From assembly GCA_946183145.1 (NCBI GenBank), contig CAMGZM010000003.1, positions 62,001 through 126,000 of the forward strand: DNA of 64,000 nucleotides, read 5' to 3'. Made by a program: the position numbers and the translations under genes. The stretch's first letter is position 1. The number at the start of each line of letters is the position of its first letter. The stretch is from an uncultured Fretibacterium sp. Its GTDB lineage: Bacteria; Synergistota; Synergistia; Synergistales; Aminobacteriaceae. Under the pieces are notes generated by a model, which was not told the DNA's origin, searched no databases, and saw only the letters and a list, made by a program, of their open reading frames with translations. Shown one piece after another: positions 54,020-62,146 of this stretch.

Positions 54020-54778
54020 TTACGATTTTTCCGCCGTGAAGCAAATATACGCGCATAAAGGCTTCACGTGAAGAATGTACATCAGGCAGTCCCACAAAAG
54101 CGCGATTAACCCGAACGGCTCAAAGAACGAGAAATATCCCGCCTGATTGTAGTCAAACATGAAATCTATCTTGCTGAAACCGTTACGGGACAATAAATTT
54201 TTCAGCGCAGGATAATAACAGCGGTCATAATATGCCTTGAATATGCCAATCTTTTCACGGCCTGGAAATACCGCAAAGACTATCTTACGCGCAAGCCAGC
54301 CGGGTATAATCTGGTTGATGATCGCAAAAAGCGCAAACTTGCAGGGAAATACGCTGATGAATTTTCCGCCGGGCTTGATTATTCTGCTGACTTCTTTCAC
54401 TGCGCTCTCAAGATCCTTCAGGTGTTCAAGCACAGAAGATGACGTTACCATGTCAACAGACTCATCTTCAAGCGGGACTCTTTTGCCTGATGTAAGGTCA
54501 AACACTATTTTTTCATCCGCGTCATTGTTGAAGGCTAATTCTTCTGCTGAAACGTCAAGCGCGGTAATCTTTATGCCCGTGTATGTCCTGCATTCGTCCG
54601 CAAATGTGCAGCGTTTTCCGCCTCCTATATCAAGCACAGAAATATTATCCGCAAGATTTCTCTTGACCTCTTCACGGTAATGTCTGTATGCGCTGTGTTT
54701 TGTGTTTGGGAAAATTTTTGCGATTAATGAATGGCACTTCTTGTTGAAATTTATGAACGCTCTCAAAGGGTTAGACAT
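54020..54778 (-). CDS. Class I SAM-dependent methyltransferase
   Basis: A 252-residue methyltransferase of the UbiE/COQ5-like type. Motif I is VLDIGGGKRCTFADEC, motif II ALDVSAEELAFN, and SSVLEHLKDLESAVKEVSRIIKPGG is the post-III block. The C-terminal third (YDRCYYPALKNLLSRNGF and further) looks specific to a surface-glycan or lipid enzyme, but the substrate is not known. It is driven by copy 2 of the repeat-associated promoter, whose 5' untranslated region carries heptamer repeats. Confidence 0.88.
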   Translation of the reverse strand: MSNPLRAFINFNKKCHSLIAKIFPNTKHSAYRHYREEVKRNLADNISVLDIGGGKRCTFADECRTYTGIKITALDVSAEELAFNNDADEKIVFDLTSGKRVPLEDESVDMVTSSSVLEHLKDLESAVKEVSRIIKPGGKFISVFPCKFALFAIINQIIPGWLARKIVFAVFPGREKIGIFKAYYDRCYYPALKNLLSRNGFSKIDFMFDYNQAGYFSFFEPFGLIALLWDCLMYILHVKPLCAYICFTAEKS

Positions 54779-54813: not shown

Positions 54814-54838
54814 CTGCTGACTGCTGACTGCAGACTGC
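54814..54838 (-). repeat. Heptamer repeat array, copy 2
   Basis: Units CTGCTGA, CTGCTGA, CTGCAGA and CTGC, about 3.5 copies, end directly beside the -10 element. The units differ slightly, while the flanking ACAGACTAAGCTA sequence is shared with copy 3. Confidence 0.7.
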
Positions 54839-54867
54839 ATTATGGCGCGGGAATTAATCCCTGTCAA
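54839..54867 (-). promoter_or_regulatory. Repeat-associated promoter, copy 2 (methyltransferase gene)
   Basis: On the minus strand TTGACA (54862-54867), a 17-base spacer and CATAAT (54839-54844). Upstream AATAAGGAGG is shared with copy 3. Confidence 0.78.
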
Positions 54868-54916
54868 CCTCCTTATTACGCAATTTTTTACGGAGAAATT
54901 TTAACACAGCATGATA

Positions 54917-56410: not shown

Positions 56411-56440
56411 AATCATGGCTGAAAGTTAAGGAGGCAAATG

Positions 56441-57658
56441 ATGAAAACTATTATTGCATGGCTGAAGGAATATGCGGAAGTAATTGGACTTGTGTTGACA
56501 GTTTTAGGAGGGGTGTACAGTTTGTACGGGGCTATGGGGGTAATAATATGCGTGGCGGTGCTGGCTATGCTGGGATACATTCTGTGTCGTGCTTTAGATG
56601 ATAAAAAAGAGTCTACTGACGAGGAAAAGTCAGAGTCCATTGCCGGAAAGGAAGCAAAAACTATTTCTGAGGAGAAATTAGTAACAGCTGCAGGGAAAAA
56701 ATCACAGCCTTACGATCATATGAAAAAGCACCCCACAATGAATGATAGTGATTTTTTGAAGCTGTGCATGTCAGGTGATGCACGAAAGGTTGAACAAGCC
56801 ATAATGAATGGCGCAGATGCCAATACTAAAGACAATCACAGCAAGACGGCTTTATGGTGGGCAGCATGGAATGAGCATGTAGATGTAGCGGAAGTTCTCC
56901 TGAAAAACGGCGCGGATATTGACGCTAAGGACGATGACGGCAAGACGGCTTTATGGTGGGCGGTATATAACGGCAAAACAGAAACAGCAGAATTTCTCAT
57001 TAAACACGGTGCTGATGTCAACGCTAACAATAACGGCTGGACGGCTTTAATGGGAGCAGCAATTAGTAACCATGTAGATGTAGCGGAAGTTCTCCTGAAA
57101 AACGGCGCGGATATTGACACTAAGGATAATCACGGCAAGACGGCTTTATGGTGGGCAGCATGGAATGAGCATGTAGATGTAGCGGAAGTTCTCCTGAAAA
57201 ACGGCGCGGATATTGACGCTAAGGACAATGACGGCAGGACAGCTTTATGGTGGGCAGCATATAAATGCAAAACAGAAACAGTAGAATTTCTCATTAAATA
57301 CGGTGCGGATATTGATGCTAAGGACGAAGACGGCAATCCAGCTTTATGGTGGGCAGTATGGAATGACCATTTAGATGTAGTGGAAGTTCTCCTGAAAAAC
57401 GGCGCGAATATTGATGCTAAGGATAATCACGGCAAGACGGCTTTATGGTGGGCAGCATATAGCGGCGAAACAGAAACAGCAGAATTTCTCATTAAACACG
57501 CTGCTGATATCAATACTAAGGACAATGACGGTAGGACGGCTTTACAATGTGCAAAAGATGAAGGCCACACCGAAACCGCAGAGCTTTTACGCAAATACGG
57601 GGCAAAAGAATACGGATTTTTCGGTTGGTTATTTTCTATATTTAGCGCAAAAGAGTAA
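56441..57658 (+). CDS. Membrane-anchored ankyrin-repeat protein
   Basis: A 405-residue protein. A hydrophobic segment near residues 15-45 (VIGLVLTVLGGVYSLYGAMGVIICVAVLAMLGY) anchors it; a charged linker follows; then about eight ankyrin repeats of 33 residues with (D)GKTALWWAAWNxHVDVAEVLLKNGADIDAKDN consensus. Repeats are nearly identical in DNA, so they have expanded recently. Ankyrin repeats mediate protein binding; the partner is unknown. It lies between GH1 and PTS genes, all on the same strand with AAGGAGG sites, an unusual place for such a protein. A second ATG (56441) fits the ribosome site better than the first. Confidence 0.85.
   Translation: MKTIIAWLKEYAEVIGLVLTVLGGVYSLYGAMGVIICVAVLAMLGYILCRALDDKKESTDEEKSESIAGKEAKTISEEKLVTAAGKKSQPYDHMKKHPTMNDSDFLKLCMSGDARKVEQAIMNGADANTKDNHSKTALWWAAWNEHVDVAEVLLKNGADIDAKDDDGKTALWWAVYNGKTETAEFLIKHGADVNANNNGWTALMGAAISNHVDVAEVLLKNGADIDTKDNHGKTALWWAAWNEHVDVAEVLLKNGADIDAKDNDGRTALWWAAYKCKTETVEFLIKYGADIDAKDEDGNPALWWAVWNDHLDVVEVLLKNGANIDAKDNHGKTALWWAAYSGETETAEFLIKHAADINTKDNDGRTALQCAKDEGHTETAELLRKYGAKEYGFFGWLFSIFSAKE
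56820..57580 (+). repeat. Near-identical 99-base repeats in the ankyrin gene
   Basis: Units of 33 codons recur with the same wobble bases: the segment GGCAAGACGGCTTTATGGTG at 56843 returns near 57133 and 57430, and GAAGTTCTCCTGAAAAACGG occurs four times. The identity suggests recent unequal crossing-over. Confidence 0.75.
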
Positions 57659-59602: not shown

Positions 59603-59646
59603 GCAGACTATTTATTGTCATGTGCAGTAAATGTCTGCCCGTTTTT
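59603..59646 (+). terminator. Rho-independent terminator after the PTS gene
   Basis: GCAGAC and GTCTGC arms, with a larger loop, are followed by CCGTTTTT. It lies between the converging PTS and aldolase genes. Confidence 0.65.
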
Positions 59647-61264
59647 ATCTGAAGGCTTCCTCAAACTGCGAAGGAGTGAGAAATTTTATCTCGCATTTGT
59701 CCTTTACAGTTTCGTAATATTCGTGAAGCATGAGATTCAATTCCTTGTTGAGAAGTGAAAAGCTGTCTAGGTATCTGTCATTCTGAAATGATGAGTCAGA
59801 AAAATTATTCTCATTCTCAGGGCTGAAACCGTCAAAACCCGCAAAAGTTATTCTCTGAACACCGACACGCCGCAAAAGATTCAGCAGCATGATTGCGGAG
59901 TTCTCGAAATATTTATATCCCCTGTTTATCAGGCTGTAATAATTCACGGTGATAACATCTTCAGGAGTCTCAGGCAAAATATTTGACGTGATTATGATTC
60001 TCCCGCTTTCGTGTTTCGGCGCATCCTGAATATAACGCCTGCTGTTACCGTAAAACGCATACGTCCCGGGCAGATCAGACAGGAAATTAACGCTAATGAC
60101 AATCGGATTATGCTTCTTTGCGTATTCTCTTATGTCTTCATAACAATCGCTGAAAGTTTTTCCGGGTACAAGAATTAATATCTCCCTTCCCGAAAATATT
60201 TCCCTAAGAGTCTTTACTGCCTCGCTGTCGTCAACTTTATACGCTGTATATTCCATGTAGAGCCGCTCTATGTTGTCGTAATCGTAACGCTGACGCTTAA
60301 CGGGGTCAATCATTGCGAGAATTTTCCCGATGTCTTTCGTTGCGAGCCTGAATTTTTCCGTGAGATAAATTATGTTGTTCGGATGAGATTTATATATCCC
60401 CGCCATCATTGCAGGAACTGAATAGCCCCATTTGTGCCGCAGCGAGTACTGATGTATATACGTGTCTATTATGTCAAGAATAGTATCAAGGTCATAATCA
60501 TAATGCAGCTTGCGGATGAGATAATCAGCAATTAATTCCGTGCAGAGATTCCCGGCGGCTTTTCCCATTCCGCTGAGTGTCGAATCAATTATGAGCTTTC
60601 TAACTCCGCCTGAAAGTTTTATTACTTCCTGAGCAAATGAAAACGAAAGCTGATAATTATTATGCGAGTGAAAATTTATGCGTATACTAGGCTTCATATT
60701 GTGGTCAATGAGTCCGTAGAGCCTGCTTACATCATCAGAATACATTGCGCCGTAAGTGTCAACAATCCCAAAGCTGTAAGGCTCAATTTCATTCACCATG
60801 CTGACAAGCTCAAGTATTTCAATGTCGGAATAATTCAGAGAGTTCACGCCCTGAATGAAGAGCTTGTATCCCATCTCCTTAATGAGTCTCATACAGCGGA
60901 TCAAATCATTCTTTGCGCTGTCATAATCTTTCTTTGTGAAGCCGAATCGTATGGCATCAATCGAAGAAGGATCATGAGGCTTCAGCGAATCAAAATCAAA
61001 CATCCCGTAATCAATAAAGGCCGTGTACAATGCTTTTCTCGCGCGGGGAATGAATGGTGCAATCTGCTCTGTGTCAGTGAAAAATGTACTGTTGCCGGAA
61101 TAATTTACACTCCGTTTGTCTCTCAGGAATCCGACTTCTACAATATCAACGCCGGAATCATCAAGCCCCTGTGAAATTCCTCGTATCTCGCTGTCAGGAA
61201 ACGCGCAGTTTATGACTCGCCCGCCGTCCCTCAGTGTGCAGTCAAGAATCTGAATGTTCTTCAT
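59645..61264 (-). CDS. Aldolase-like protein with a second C-terminal domain
   Basis: A 539-residue, two-domain protein. The N-terminal half (about 1-275) is a DRE-TIM (HMGL-like) barrel: ILDCTLRDGGRVINCAF and NFHSHNNYQLSFSFA (H-x-H metal ligands) are clear, and STLSGMGKAAGNLCTE follows, as in hydroxy-oxovalerate aldolase. The C-terminal half (about 340-539) resembles a Rossmann-like domain (ILILVPGKTFSDCYEDI, ITFAGFDGFS) of unknown function. It is downstream of the CMP-sugar synthetase (13-base gap), so both may supply a keto-acid sugar. The reaction itself is not known. The ATG at 61264 has no close ribosome site except AGGGGTAGC. Confidence 0.72.
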   Translation of the reverse strand: MKNIQILDCTLRDGGRVINCAFPDSEIRGISQGLDDSGVDIVEVGFLRDKRSVNYSGNSTFFTDTEQIAPFIPRARKALYTAFIDYGMFDFDSLKPHDPSSIDAIRFGFTKKDYDSAKNDLIRCMRLIKEMGYKLFIQGVNSLNYSDIEILELVSMVNEIEPYSFGIVDTYGAMYSDDVSRLYGLIDHNMKPSIRINFHSHNNYQLSFSFAQEVIKLSGGVRKLIIDSTLSGMGKAAGNLCTELIADYLIRKLHYDYDLDTILDIIDTYIHQYSLRHKWGYSVPAMMAGIYKSHPNNIIYLTEKFRLATKDIGKILAMIDPVKRQRYDYDNIERLYMEYTAYKVDDSEAVKTLREIFSGREILILVPGKTFSDCYEDIREYAKKHNPIVISVNFLSDLPGTYAFYGNSRRYIQDAPKHESGRIIITSNILPETPEDVITVNYYSLINRGYKYFENSAIMLLNLLRRVGVQRITFAGFDGFSPENENNFSDSSFQNDRYLDSFSLLNKELNLMLHEYYETVKDKCEIKFLTPSQFEEAFR

Positions 61265-61277
61265 GCTGCTACCCCTG

Positions 61278-61940
61278 TTATTTCCCAGCAAGATATGACA
61301 TAGCAGCCTCCGCAAATGCAAAATCCTCTGCTGTGTCTATGTCTATTGCTTCGAACTGGTCAACCTCGCAGATATACGGCCTCTTTCCGATGCGCTGCCC
61401 TGTTTGTGTGAAAACTTCGCGCCTGAATATGAAGAATGCTCCTGTCTCCATGTATACAGGCTCAAGATCTTGTGAACGAGGAATATCCTTCATGTCGTAA
61501 TTGAACGGTCTGCCCTGATACCACATATAATCCCTGAGACAAACCGCAGAGAATGCAGAATCGTATTCACCGCTCATAACATTATGAAGTGATTTGCTGA
61601 TTGATTCGGATTTTGTGAAAGGCTGAGTCGTGTGAGTCAGAACATAAATATCGGCCATGACATCACGCAGAAAGTAATCAATAATTTCAAGCCCCTTAAC
61701 CTGAAAGCCGTCAAGATATTTATCGCGCTTCAAGAACCGCAAGCCCCGGTGTTCATACAGTGCTGTGTAAGATTTTATTGACTCATCGCTGCAATATACA
61801 TAGCGTTCATCAATTTCATCAACATTGCATACTGTCTCAAAAATATAATCGCATAAAGGTTTTCCGTTCAGCGGAAGTAAATTTTTGCCGGGTAATCTCT
61901 GGTTGTTGAGCTTGATGGGAATAAATGATACTACTTTCAT
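61278..61940 (-). CDS. Acylneuraminate cytidylyltransferase-like CMP-sugar synthetase
   Basis: A 220-residue nucleotidyltransferase that activates an acidic sugar with CTP. The N-terminal signature is IPIKLNNQRLPGKNLLPLNGKPL, close to the consensus IPARxxSKRLPGKN; the DxD region and METGAFFIFRREVF follow. Members activate sialic, legionaminic, pseudaminic or KDO-type acids. The start is the ATG at 61938-61940 with TGGAGG nine bases upstream. It lies under control of copy 3 of the repeat-associated promoter and next to the aldolase-like gene. Confidence 0.85.
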   Translation of the reverse strand: MKVVSFIPIKLNNQRLPGKNLLPLNGKPLCDYIFETVCNVDEIDERYVYCSDESIKSYTALYEHRGLRFLKRDKYLDGFQVKGLEIIDYFLRDVMADIYVLTHTTQPFTKSESISKSLHNVMSGEYDSAFSAVCLRDYMWYQGRPFNYDMKDIPRSQDLEPVYMETGAFFIFRREVFTQTGQRIGKRPYICEVDQFEAIDIDTAEDFAFAEAAMSYLAGK

Positions 61941-61988
61941 CCCGCAATGCCTCCATAACAAAACGGGATTAAGGGACAGACTAAGCTA

Positions 61989-62045
61989 CTGCGAACTGCG
62001 AACTGCGAACTGCGAACTGCGAACTGCGAACTGCGAACTGCGAAC
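61989..62045 (-). repeat. Heptamer repeat array, copy 3
   Basis: Eight perfect copies of CTGCGAA (61989-62044). They start at the base next to the -10 hexamer, so on the minus strand the transcription start falls inside the array. The array length is likely to vary by slipped-strand errors or recombination. Confidence 0.85.
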
Positions 62046-62074
62046 ATTATGCGGCGCAAATTCACATTTGTCAA
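62046..62074 (-). promoter_or_regulatory. Repeat-associated promoter, copy 3 (CMP-sugar synthetase gene)
   Basis: On the minus strand a perfect TTGACA (62069-62074), a 17-base spacer and CATAAT (62046-62051). AATAAGGAGG lies upstream, as in copy 2. Together with the array the leader is about 100 bases. Confidence 0.85.
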
Positions 62075-62110
62075 CCTCCTTATTGCTGGAATTTTGAGGA
62101 ATTATAGCAT

Positions 62111-62146
62111 AAAAAAAATTCCCCCCGCATATTTCACAGGAGGAAT
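62111..62146 (-). terminator. Rho-independent terminator after recA
   Basis: On the minus strand TTCCTCC and GGGGGGAA arms are followed by a run of T. It separates recA from the downstream promoter cassette. Confidence 0.75.

Follow-up and report, generated by a model that had tools for sequence, protein, structure and literature searches.

In this study, we found that an exact heptamer array in the window (the whole 64,000-nucleotide stretch of DNA that was analysed) belongs, with high likelihood, to a portable phase-variation cassette. In such a cassette, the reading frame of a short leader ORF would control a glycan gene through translational coupling. The anatomy of the cassette, its recurrence, its frame logic, the genes downstream of it and a folding bias at their ribosome sites were each read directly from sequence.

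The repeat array and leader ORF in the window

Tandem Repeats Finder reported a period of 7 at 61988-62045, with 8.3 copies and a 100% match. The eight perfect CTGCGAA repeats described in an earlier note on this DNA were borne out as an exact (TTCGCAG)8 array on the minus strand (61989-62044; Tandem Repeats Finder and sequence read-out). A 14-mer of two units had 8 matches in the window at up to two mismatches, 7 of them exact and all 7 within the array. Because the mean over 100 shuffles of the window was 0.73, the array lies beyond chance. A single G (62045) separates the array from a -10 hexamer, CATAAT (62051-62046, minus strand). With the -35 hexamer TTGACA (62069-62074, minus strand) at a spacer of 17, this hexamer forms a near-consensus promoter, P2, which matches 11 of 12 consensus positions and points on the minus strand toward a cytidylyltransferase gene (CTP_transf_3; Pfam, E=6.4e-13; 61278-61940, minus strand). 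The array adjoins the -10 and probably overlaps the transcription start, as the note had proposed, the start itself being a prediction from the -10. The note had also expected each unit change to alter the initially transcribed sequence. This did not hold, since periodicity begins at the first base of the array and the sequence is the same for every unit number n.

An upstream promoter, P1, was positioned from its extended -10, TGCTATAAT (62101-62109, minus strand), just after the recA terminator. The recA gene lies upstream in the same direction as the array, with a terminator-like hairpin (62147-62117) between recA and P1. The ribosome-binding site of the leader ORF, AAGGAGG (62075-62081, minus strand), is conserved in an alignment of 44 cassettes for which GGAGG formed part of the selecting pattern. 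The leader ORF (61937-62065, minus strand) starts at a GTG (62065-62063) and was computed to encode 42 aa at n=8, where its TGA overlaps the ATG of the next gene (61940-61938) as ATGA (61940-61937). This next gene, CTP_transf_3, is the putative switched gene. An HMGL-like aldolase-family gene (Pfam, E=1.2e-21; 59645-61264, minus strand) is the second gene of the probable operon. The ribosome-binding site of the cytidylyltransferase gene, GGAGG (61950-61954, minus strand), lies within a predicted hairpin.

The end of the leader was computed for every n from 4 to 12. The leader stop overlaps the ATG as ATGA when n is 5, 8 or 11. At the remaining n, TAGs within TAGCTTAG end the leader 43 or 48 nt before the ATG; with n=7 or 9, the TAGs that end it lie directly past the array. 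The exit sequence, TAGCTTAGTCTGTCC (61974-61988, minus strand), has a TAG in two of the three leader frames and leaves the third open. The assembled n=8 is the coupled phase. The statement that unit changes are without a frame effect was therefore not supported, because the array lies inside the leader ORF and the frame would decide the run-in to the start codon of the gene. The predicted effect of gaining or losing a unit is a change only in the length of the 5' region and in the reading frame of the leader ORF.

A second cassette in the window was located by core search. Its core, AAGGAGGTTGACA...CATAAT (54839-54874, minus strand), has ATT at the start-codon position. The array (54814-54838, minus strand; Tandem Repeats Finder and cassette script) comprises GCAGTCT followed by 2.7 copies of GCAGTCA, and the gene that it would switch encodes a methyltransferase (Pfam scan; 54020-54778, minus strand). 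The leader of this cassette is out of phase as assembled. In the assembled sequence, the window locus (n=8) would be ON and the cassette at 54.8 kb would be OFF. The methyltransferase was 93.3% identical to one in genome G030, where the units are TTCGCAG as opposed to GCAGTCA here. The window CTP_transf_3 was 73.6% identical to a gene in genome G039 whose cassette has the unit TCGGCTG. It is therefore likely that cassettes are swapped or rewritten more quickly than the genes that follow them. Elsewhere in the window, a gene at 56438-57658 (plus strand) contains 6-7 repeats of about 99 bp (Tandem Repeats Finder score 709), which look ankyrin-like by eye.

Spread and anatomy of the cassette in the genus

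An exact three-unit pattern was present in 21 of the 43 genomes of the genus, including the genome of the window, and in none of 57 other genomes of the family and order. The genome of the window (G000) had the pattern at three places, two of which are probably one locus, being contig ends with a 52-nt overlap of array sequence. At the end of contig C7 and the start of contig C11 of this genome (L009, L010), the assembly is broken within a third (TTCGCAG)n array, upstream of a gene that appears epimerase-like by eye from its first residues. Among the matches listed, the cassette-bearing records came mostly from ruminant guts and belonged to Synergistaceae or Synergistales. With an E cut-off of 1e-6, a sequence-only model built from 44 cassettes matched 25 of the 43 genomes of the genus and none of 38 genomes of other genera in the family. 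At E up to 0.01, matches occurred in 36 of the 43, and many of these weak matches are probably ordinary promoters. An array-first search found GGAGG and the -10 core at all 23 arrays with readable upstream DNA. A core-only search gave 33 distinct sites: 31 with arrays, one without and one truncated at a contig end.

A phage or plasmid element was considered and rejected: blastn with 61930-62125 gave no match in plasmid and phage collections, and none of the 17 matches to a closely similar core pattern in viral contigs had an array. In four of the viral contigs (L265, L269, L270, and L277), AAGGAGGTTGACA, an AACCTCC complementary to GGAGGTT, a T-run and TATAAT form an inverted repeat inside a promoter-like element.

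The shared layout of the cassettes is AAGGAGG-TTGACA-NNN-NTG...TATAAT-(array)-TAGCTTAG. In total, 74 cassettes were collected with the weaker ones included, of which 65 carry arrays and 9 lack an array of two units. The unit was 7 bp in 62 of the 65 arrays, 5 bp in 2 and 8 bp in 1, and no array had a unit length that was a multiple of three (3, 6, 9 or 12). These arrays contain 18 unit sequences in 2.0 to 11.7 copies. None of the 12 distinct 7-bp unit types in the 56 cassettes compared below has a stop in any frame, a property shared by 81% of composition-matched random 7-mers. One locus (L017, contig C87 of genome G037) has two same-direction cassettes about 1.2 kb apart, and one of its arrays contains a TTAGCAG unit in the middle.

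Fifty-six cassettes were compared position by position. NTG was found exactly 9 nt after GGAGG in 48 of them; the codon was TTG in 21, GTG in 15, ATG in 12 and another in 8, so that the first base of NTG was T, G or A and never C. NTG was absent from the cassette search pattern. The -35 was TTGACA in 45, and since the cassettes were gathered partly by core similarity, this conservation and that of GGAGG are partly by construction. The -10 was TATAAT in 44 and CATAAT in 9, with a spacer of 18 in 42 and 17 in 14. In 35 of the 56, a P1-like TGNTATAAT element was found no more than 60 nt upstream of GGAGG, mostly 19-22 nt away, and the other 21 had no P1 pattern. The position of the -10 against the -35 is kept, although the -10 falls in different codon frames.

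The array starts 0-2 nt past the -10 in 57 of the 65 array-bearing cassettes. This placement, together with near-consensus P2 hexamers kept regardless of codon frame, would fit a promoter or 5'UTR rheostat as in hmwA, in which n acts on P2 transcription or transcript stability and the frame is irrelevant. There is a precedent: the accessible part of a report on Haemophilus influenzae hmw1A/hmw2A describes a heptamer array in the 5' untranslated region that overlaps the P2 -10, with graded repression as n rises (PMC8262952). The same precedent, as far as that text describes it, weakens the earlier claim that the array differs from known promoter variation. A rheostat does not predict the start-codon signature, the stop in two frames after the array, the coupling in 41 of 44 cassettes and the in-frame fusions reported below, or the missing three-divisible units. 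In addition, the initially transcribed sequence is identical for every n. We therefore consider a rheostat, the kind of mechanism put forward in the earlier note, unlikely as the explanation of the cassette.

We give almost no credence to a neutral microsatellite carried by a duplicated promoter. Slippage-prone repeats do exist without function, and (TTCGCAG)n is also dispersed in unrelated phyla among the matches listed. However, the unit sequence varies in the cassettes while position, length class and frame logic are constant, and in the genomes searched the array is confined to this genus and tied to the core. The heptamer itself was also rejected as a functional motif, being a dispersed repeat in unrelated phyla, with 18 unit sequences sharing its position in the genus. 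Among the matches listed, two Gemmatimonadaceae MAGs have very numerous dispersed (TTCGCAG)n (L046, L048, L059, L060 and other loci), and the cassette script reported no cassette at the Gemmatimonadaceae loci among these matches.

Frame logic and predicted coupling to glycan genes

Frame logic was examined over 44 cassettes, with gene starts picked by ORF length and ribosome site, ignoring the leader. A phase was called coupled when the leader stop fell from -6 to +12 of the gene start, and the other two phases had to stop early. Exactly one coupled phase and two early phases were found in 41 of the 44 cassettes. As a control, 143 further gene starts were taken from these loci at matched distances, and 13.0% of them gave the same result (binomial P 5e-33, a value that overstates the evidence because the cassettes are related by descent). 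The three exceptions were a fusion (L042), a coupled case truncated where the stretch ends (L146) and a stop located at +16 (L235). When 49 analysable cassettes were classified with a separate script, 44 had one ON phase, 38 by coupling and 6 by in-frame fusion; 7 further cassettes were set aside as cut or too short. The five odd cases were L061, L146, L153, L179, and the second array in L017, of which L061, L146, and L179 look coupled by eye. The coupled stop was at +1 (ATGA) in 23 of the 38, and 82 of 88 off-phase stops were from -1 to +34 of the array end. As assembled, 10 of the 44 cassettes were ON and 34 were OFF, a weak excess of OFF (P=0.09).

The following mechanism is proposed. Transcripts from P1 would carry the ribosome site and start codon of the leader ORF, which spans the array. 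Slippage would add or remove units. As the unit length, usually 7 bp and sometimes 5 or 8 bp, cannot be divided by three, each such change would shift the frame of the leader. In one frame of three, the ON state, a ribosome would clear the array and stop on the downstream start codon, mostly at ATGA. It would thereby unfold the sequestered ribosome site and reinitiate at the glycan gene. At a minority of loci, an in-frame fusion of leader and gene would instead give the ON state. In either of the remaining frames, the OFF state, the ribosome would meet a stop, typically TAG, within a few bases of the array. We infer in this scheme that the leader is translated, that the gene depends on it, that units slip and that a phenotype results. 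OFF may mean low rather than zero expression, because the genes themselves have good ribosome sites and P2 transcripts would bypass the leader.

A Pfam scan was performed on 40 downstream proteins, 8 of which had no match. Most of the matched proteins belonged to glycosyltransferase, radical SAM, methyltransferase, DUF1919, DUF268, TupA ATP-grasp or cytidylyltransferase families. These families suggest a surface role for the switched genes. A tandem array that shifts a reading frame ahead of a surface-related gene is what characterises a simple-sequence contingency locus, and at the sequence level this is what was found here.

Ribosome sites downstream of the cassettes were less accessible than those of 135 controls (0.276 versus 0.430 unpaired, P=3e-7), and a difference was also found when GC and G content were allowed for (P=7e-5). 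The local fold at these sites was 3.3 kcal/mol more stable after GC adjustment (P=8e-7). The window hairpin taken alone was not significant (z=-0.75). A ribosome on the leader could also act by opening a terminator between leader and gene, which is leader-peptide attenuation as in Streptococcus gallolyticus pil1. In the part of the pil1/pil3 report available to us, GCAGA repeats lie in a short upstream leader ORF, and unit changes that are out of frame give a longer leader and higher expression of the surface gene (PMC3894217). The logic of a leader with repeats, as described there, is common to both. However, a terminator-like hairpin between the array end and the gene start was found in only one of the array-bearing cassettes scanned with a gene start, and the leader stops fall on start codons, not near a terminator. 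Because the ribosome sites are folded and terminators are nearly absent, translational coupling is favoured over attenuation, which we regard as very improbable. A pil1-like terminator as the main mechanism was rejected on this near absence.

Two contig pairs, C195 to C212 in genome G039 and C95 to C124 in genome G037, overlap by exactly 141 nt, which we take to be the word length of the assembler. The first contig of each pair ends inside the array, at the point where the path into a further unit separates from that into the exit sequence. Since the 141-nt overlap takes in the unique left flank, other loci are unlikely to have caused the branch. This pattern points to two array lengths among the reads of the source population at both loci. 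The array as a length-variable switch, as the earlier note proposed, is thus favoured by mixed lengths implied at two loci of related genomes, and not at the window locus.

The second promoter and relation to known systems

P2, with its predicted start within the array, is conserved and probably functional. It is kept in all six fusion cassettes, where P2 transcripts would be without the leader start codon and therefore unable to direct translation of the first gene. Possible roles of P2 are transcription of later operon genes, a basal level of expression and promotion of slippage. In a stronger form of the last possibility, P2 would destabilise the array, with initiation melting the repeats and driving slippage, so that the switching rate would track promoter activity. 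This idea arises because the open complex and start site would both be located on the first units and because P2 is kept in the six fusions; we consider it rather doubtful. If it were true, the cassette that is moved between glycan genes would be a contingency locus that throttles itself.

In the classical in-gene contingency loci of LPS glycosyltransferases, slippage shifts the frame of surface-glycan genes. This arrangement is seen in the six fusion cassettes, whereas most cassettes hold the repeat outside the gene, in a coupled leader. The cassette resembles pil1/pil3, as far as the accessible text describes that system, in having non-three-divisible repeats inside a leader ORF with its own ribosome site and start. 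Unlike pil1/pil3, where an intrinsic terminator is opened, it has a stop-start overlap and folded ribosome sites with almost no terminators. It also differs from the described pil1/pil3 arrangement by a second promoter on the array and by being copied at many glycan loci. With hmw1A/hmw2A, again as described in the available part of that report, it shares 7-bp units at the -10, an array within the transcripts, two promoters and a surface function. In contrast to that description, the cassette array would lie inside a leader ORF with a conserved start and a coupled stop, giving a logic of n modulo 3. By this comparison, the known systems closest to the cassette are hmwA and pil1, each of which has half of the design. 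A translationally coupled leader ORF with repeats was not found in the open literature searched (titles and abstract openings), and no report of phase variation in Synergistota was found in the literature searched.

These results suggest an apparent genus-wide phase-variation system in Synergistota. Promoter repeats and leader-ORF repeats, known separately, appear to be joined into one standard part that is reused before many glycan genes. The cassette also raises the question of what keeps a second promoter fixed at the repeats. With ON and OFF given by n modulo 3, the surface variability of rumen and gut Synergistota would become predictable from sequence.
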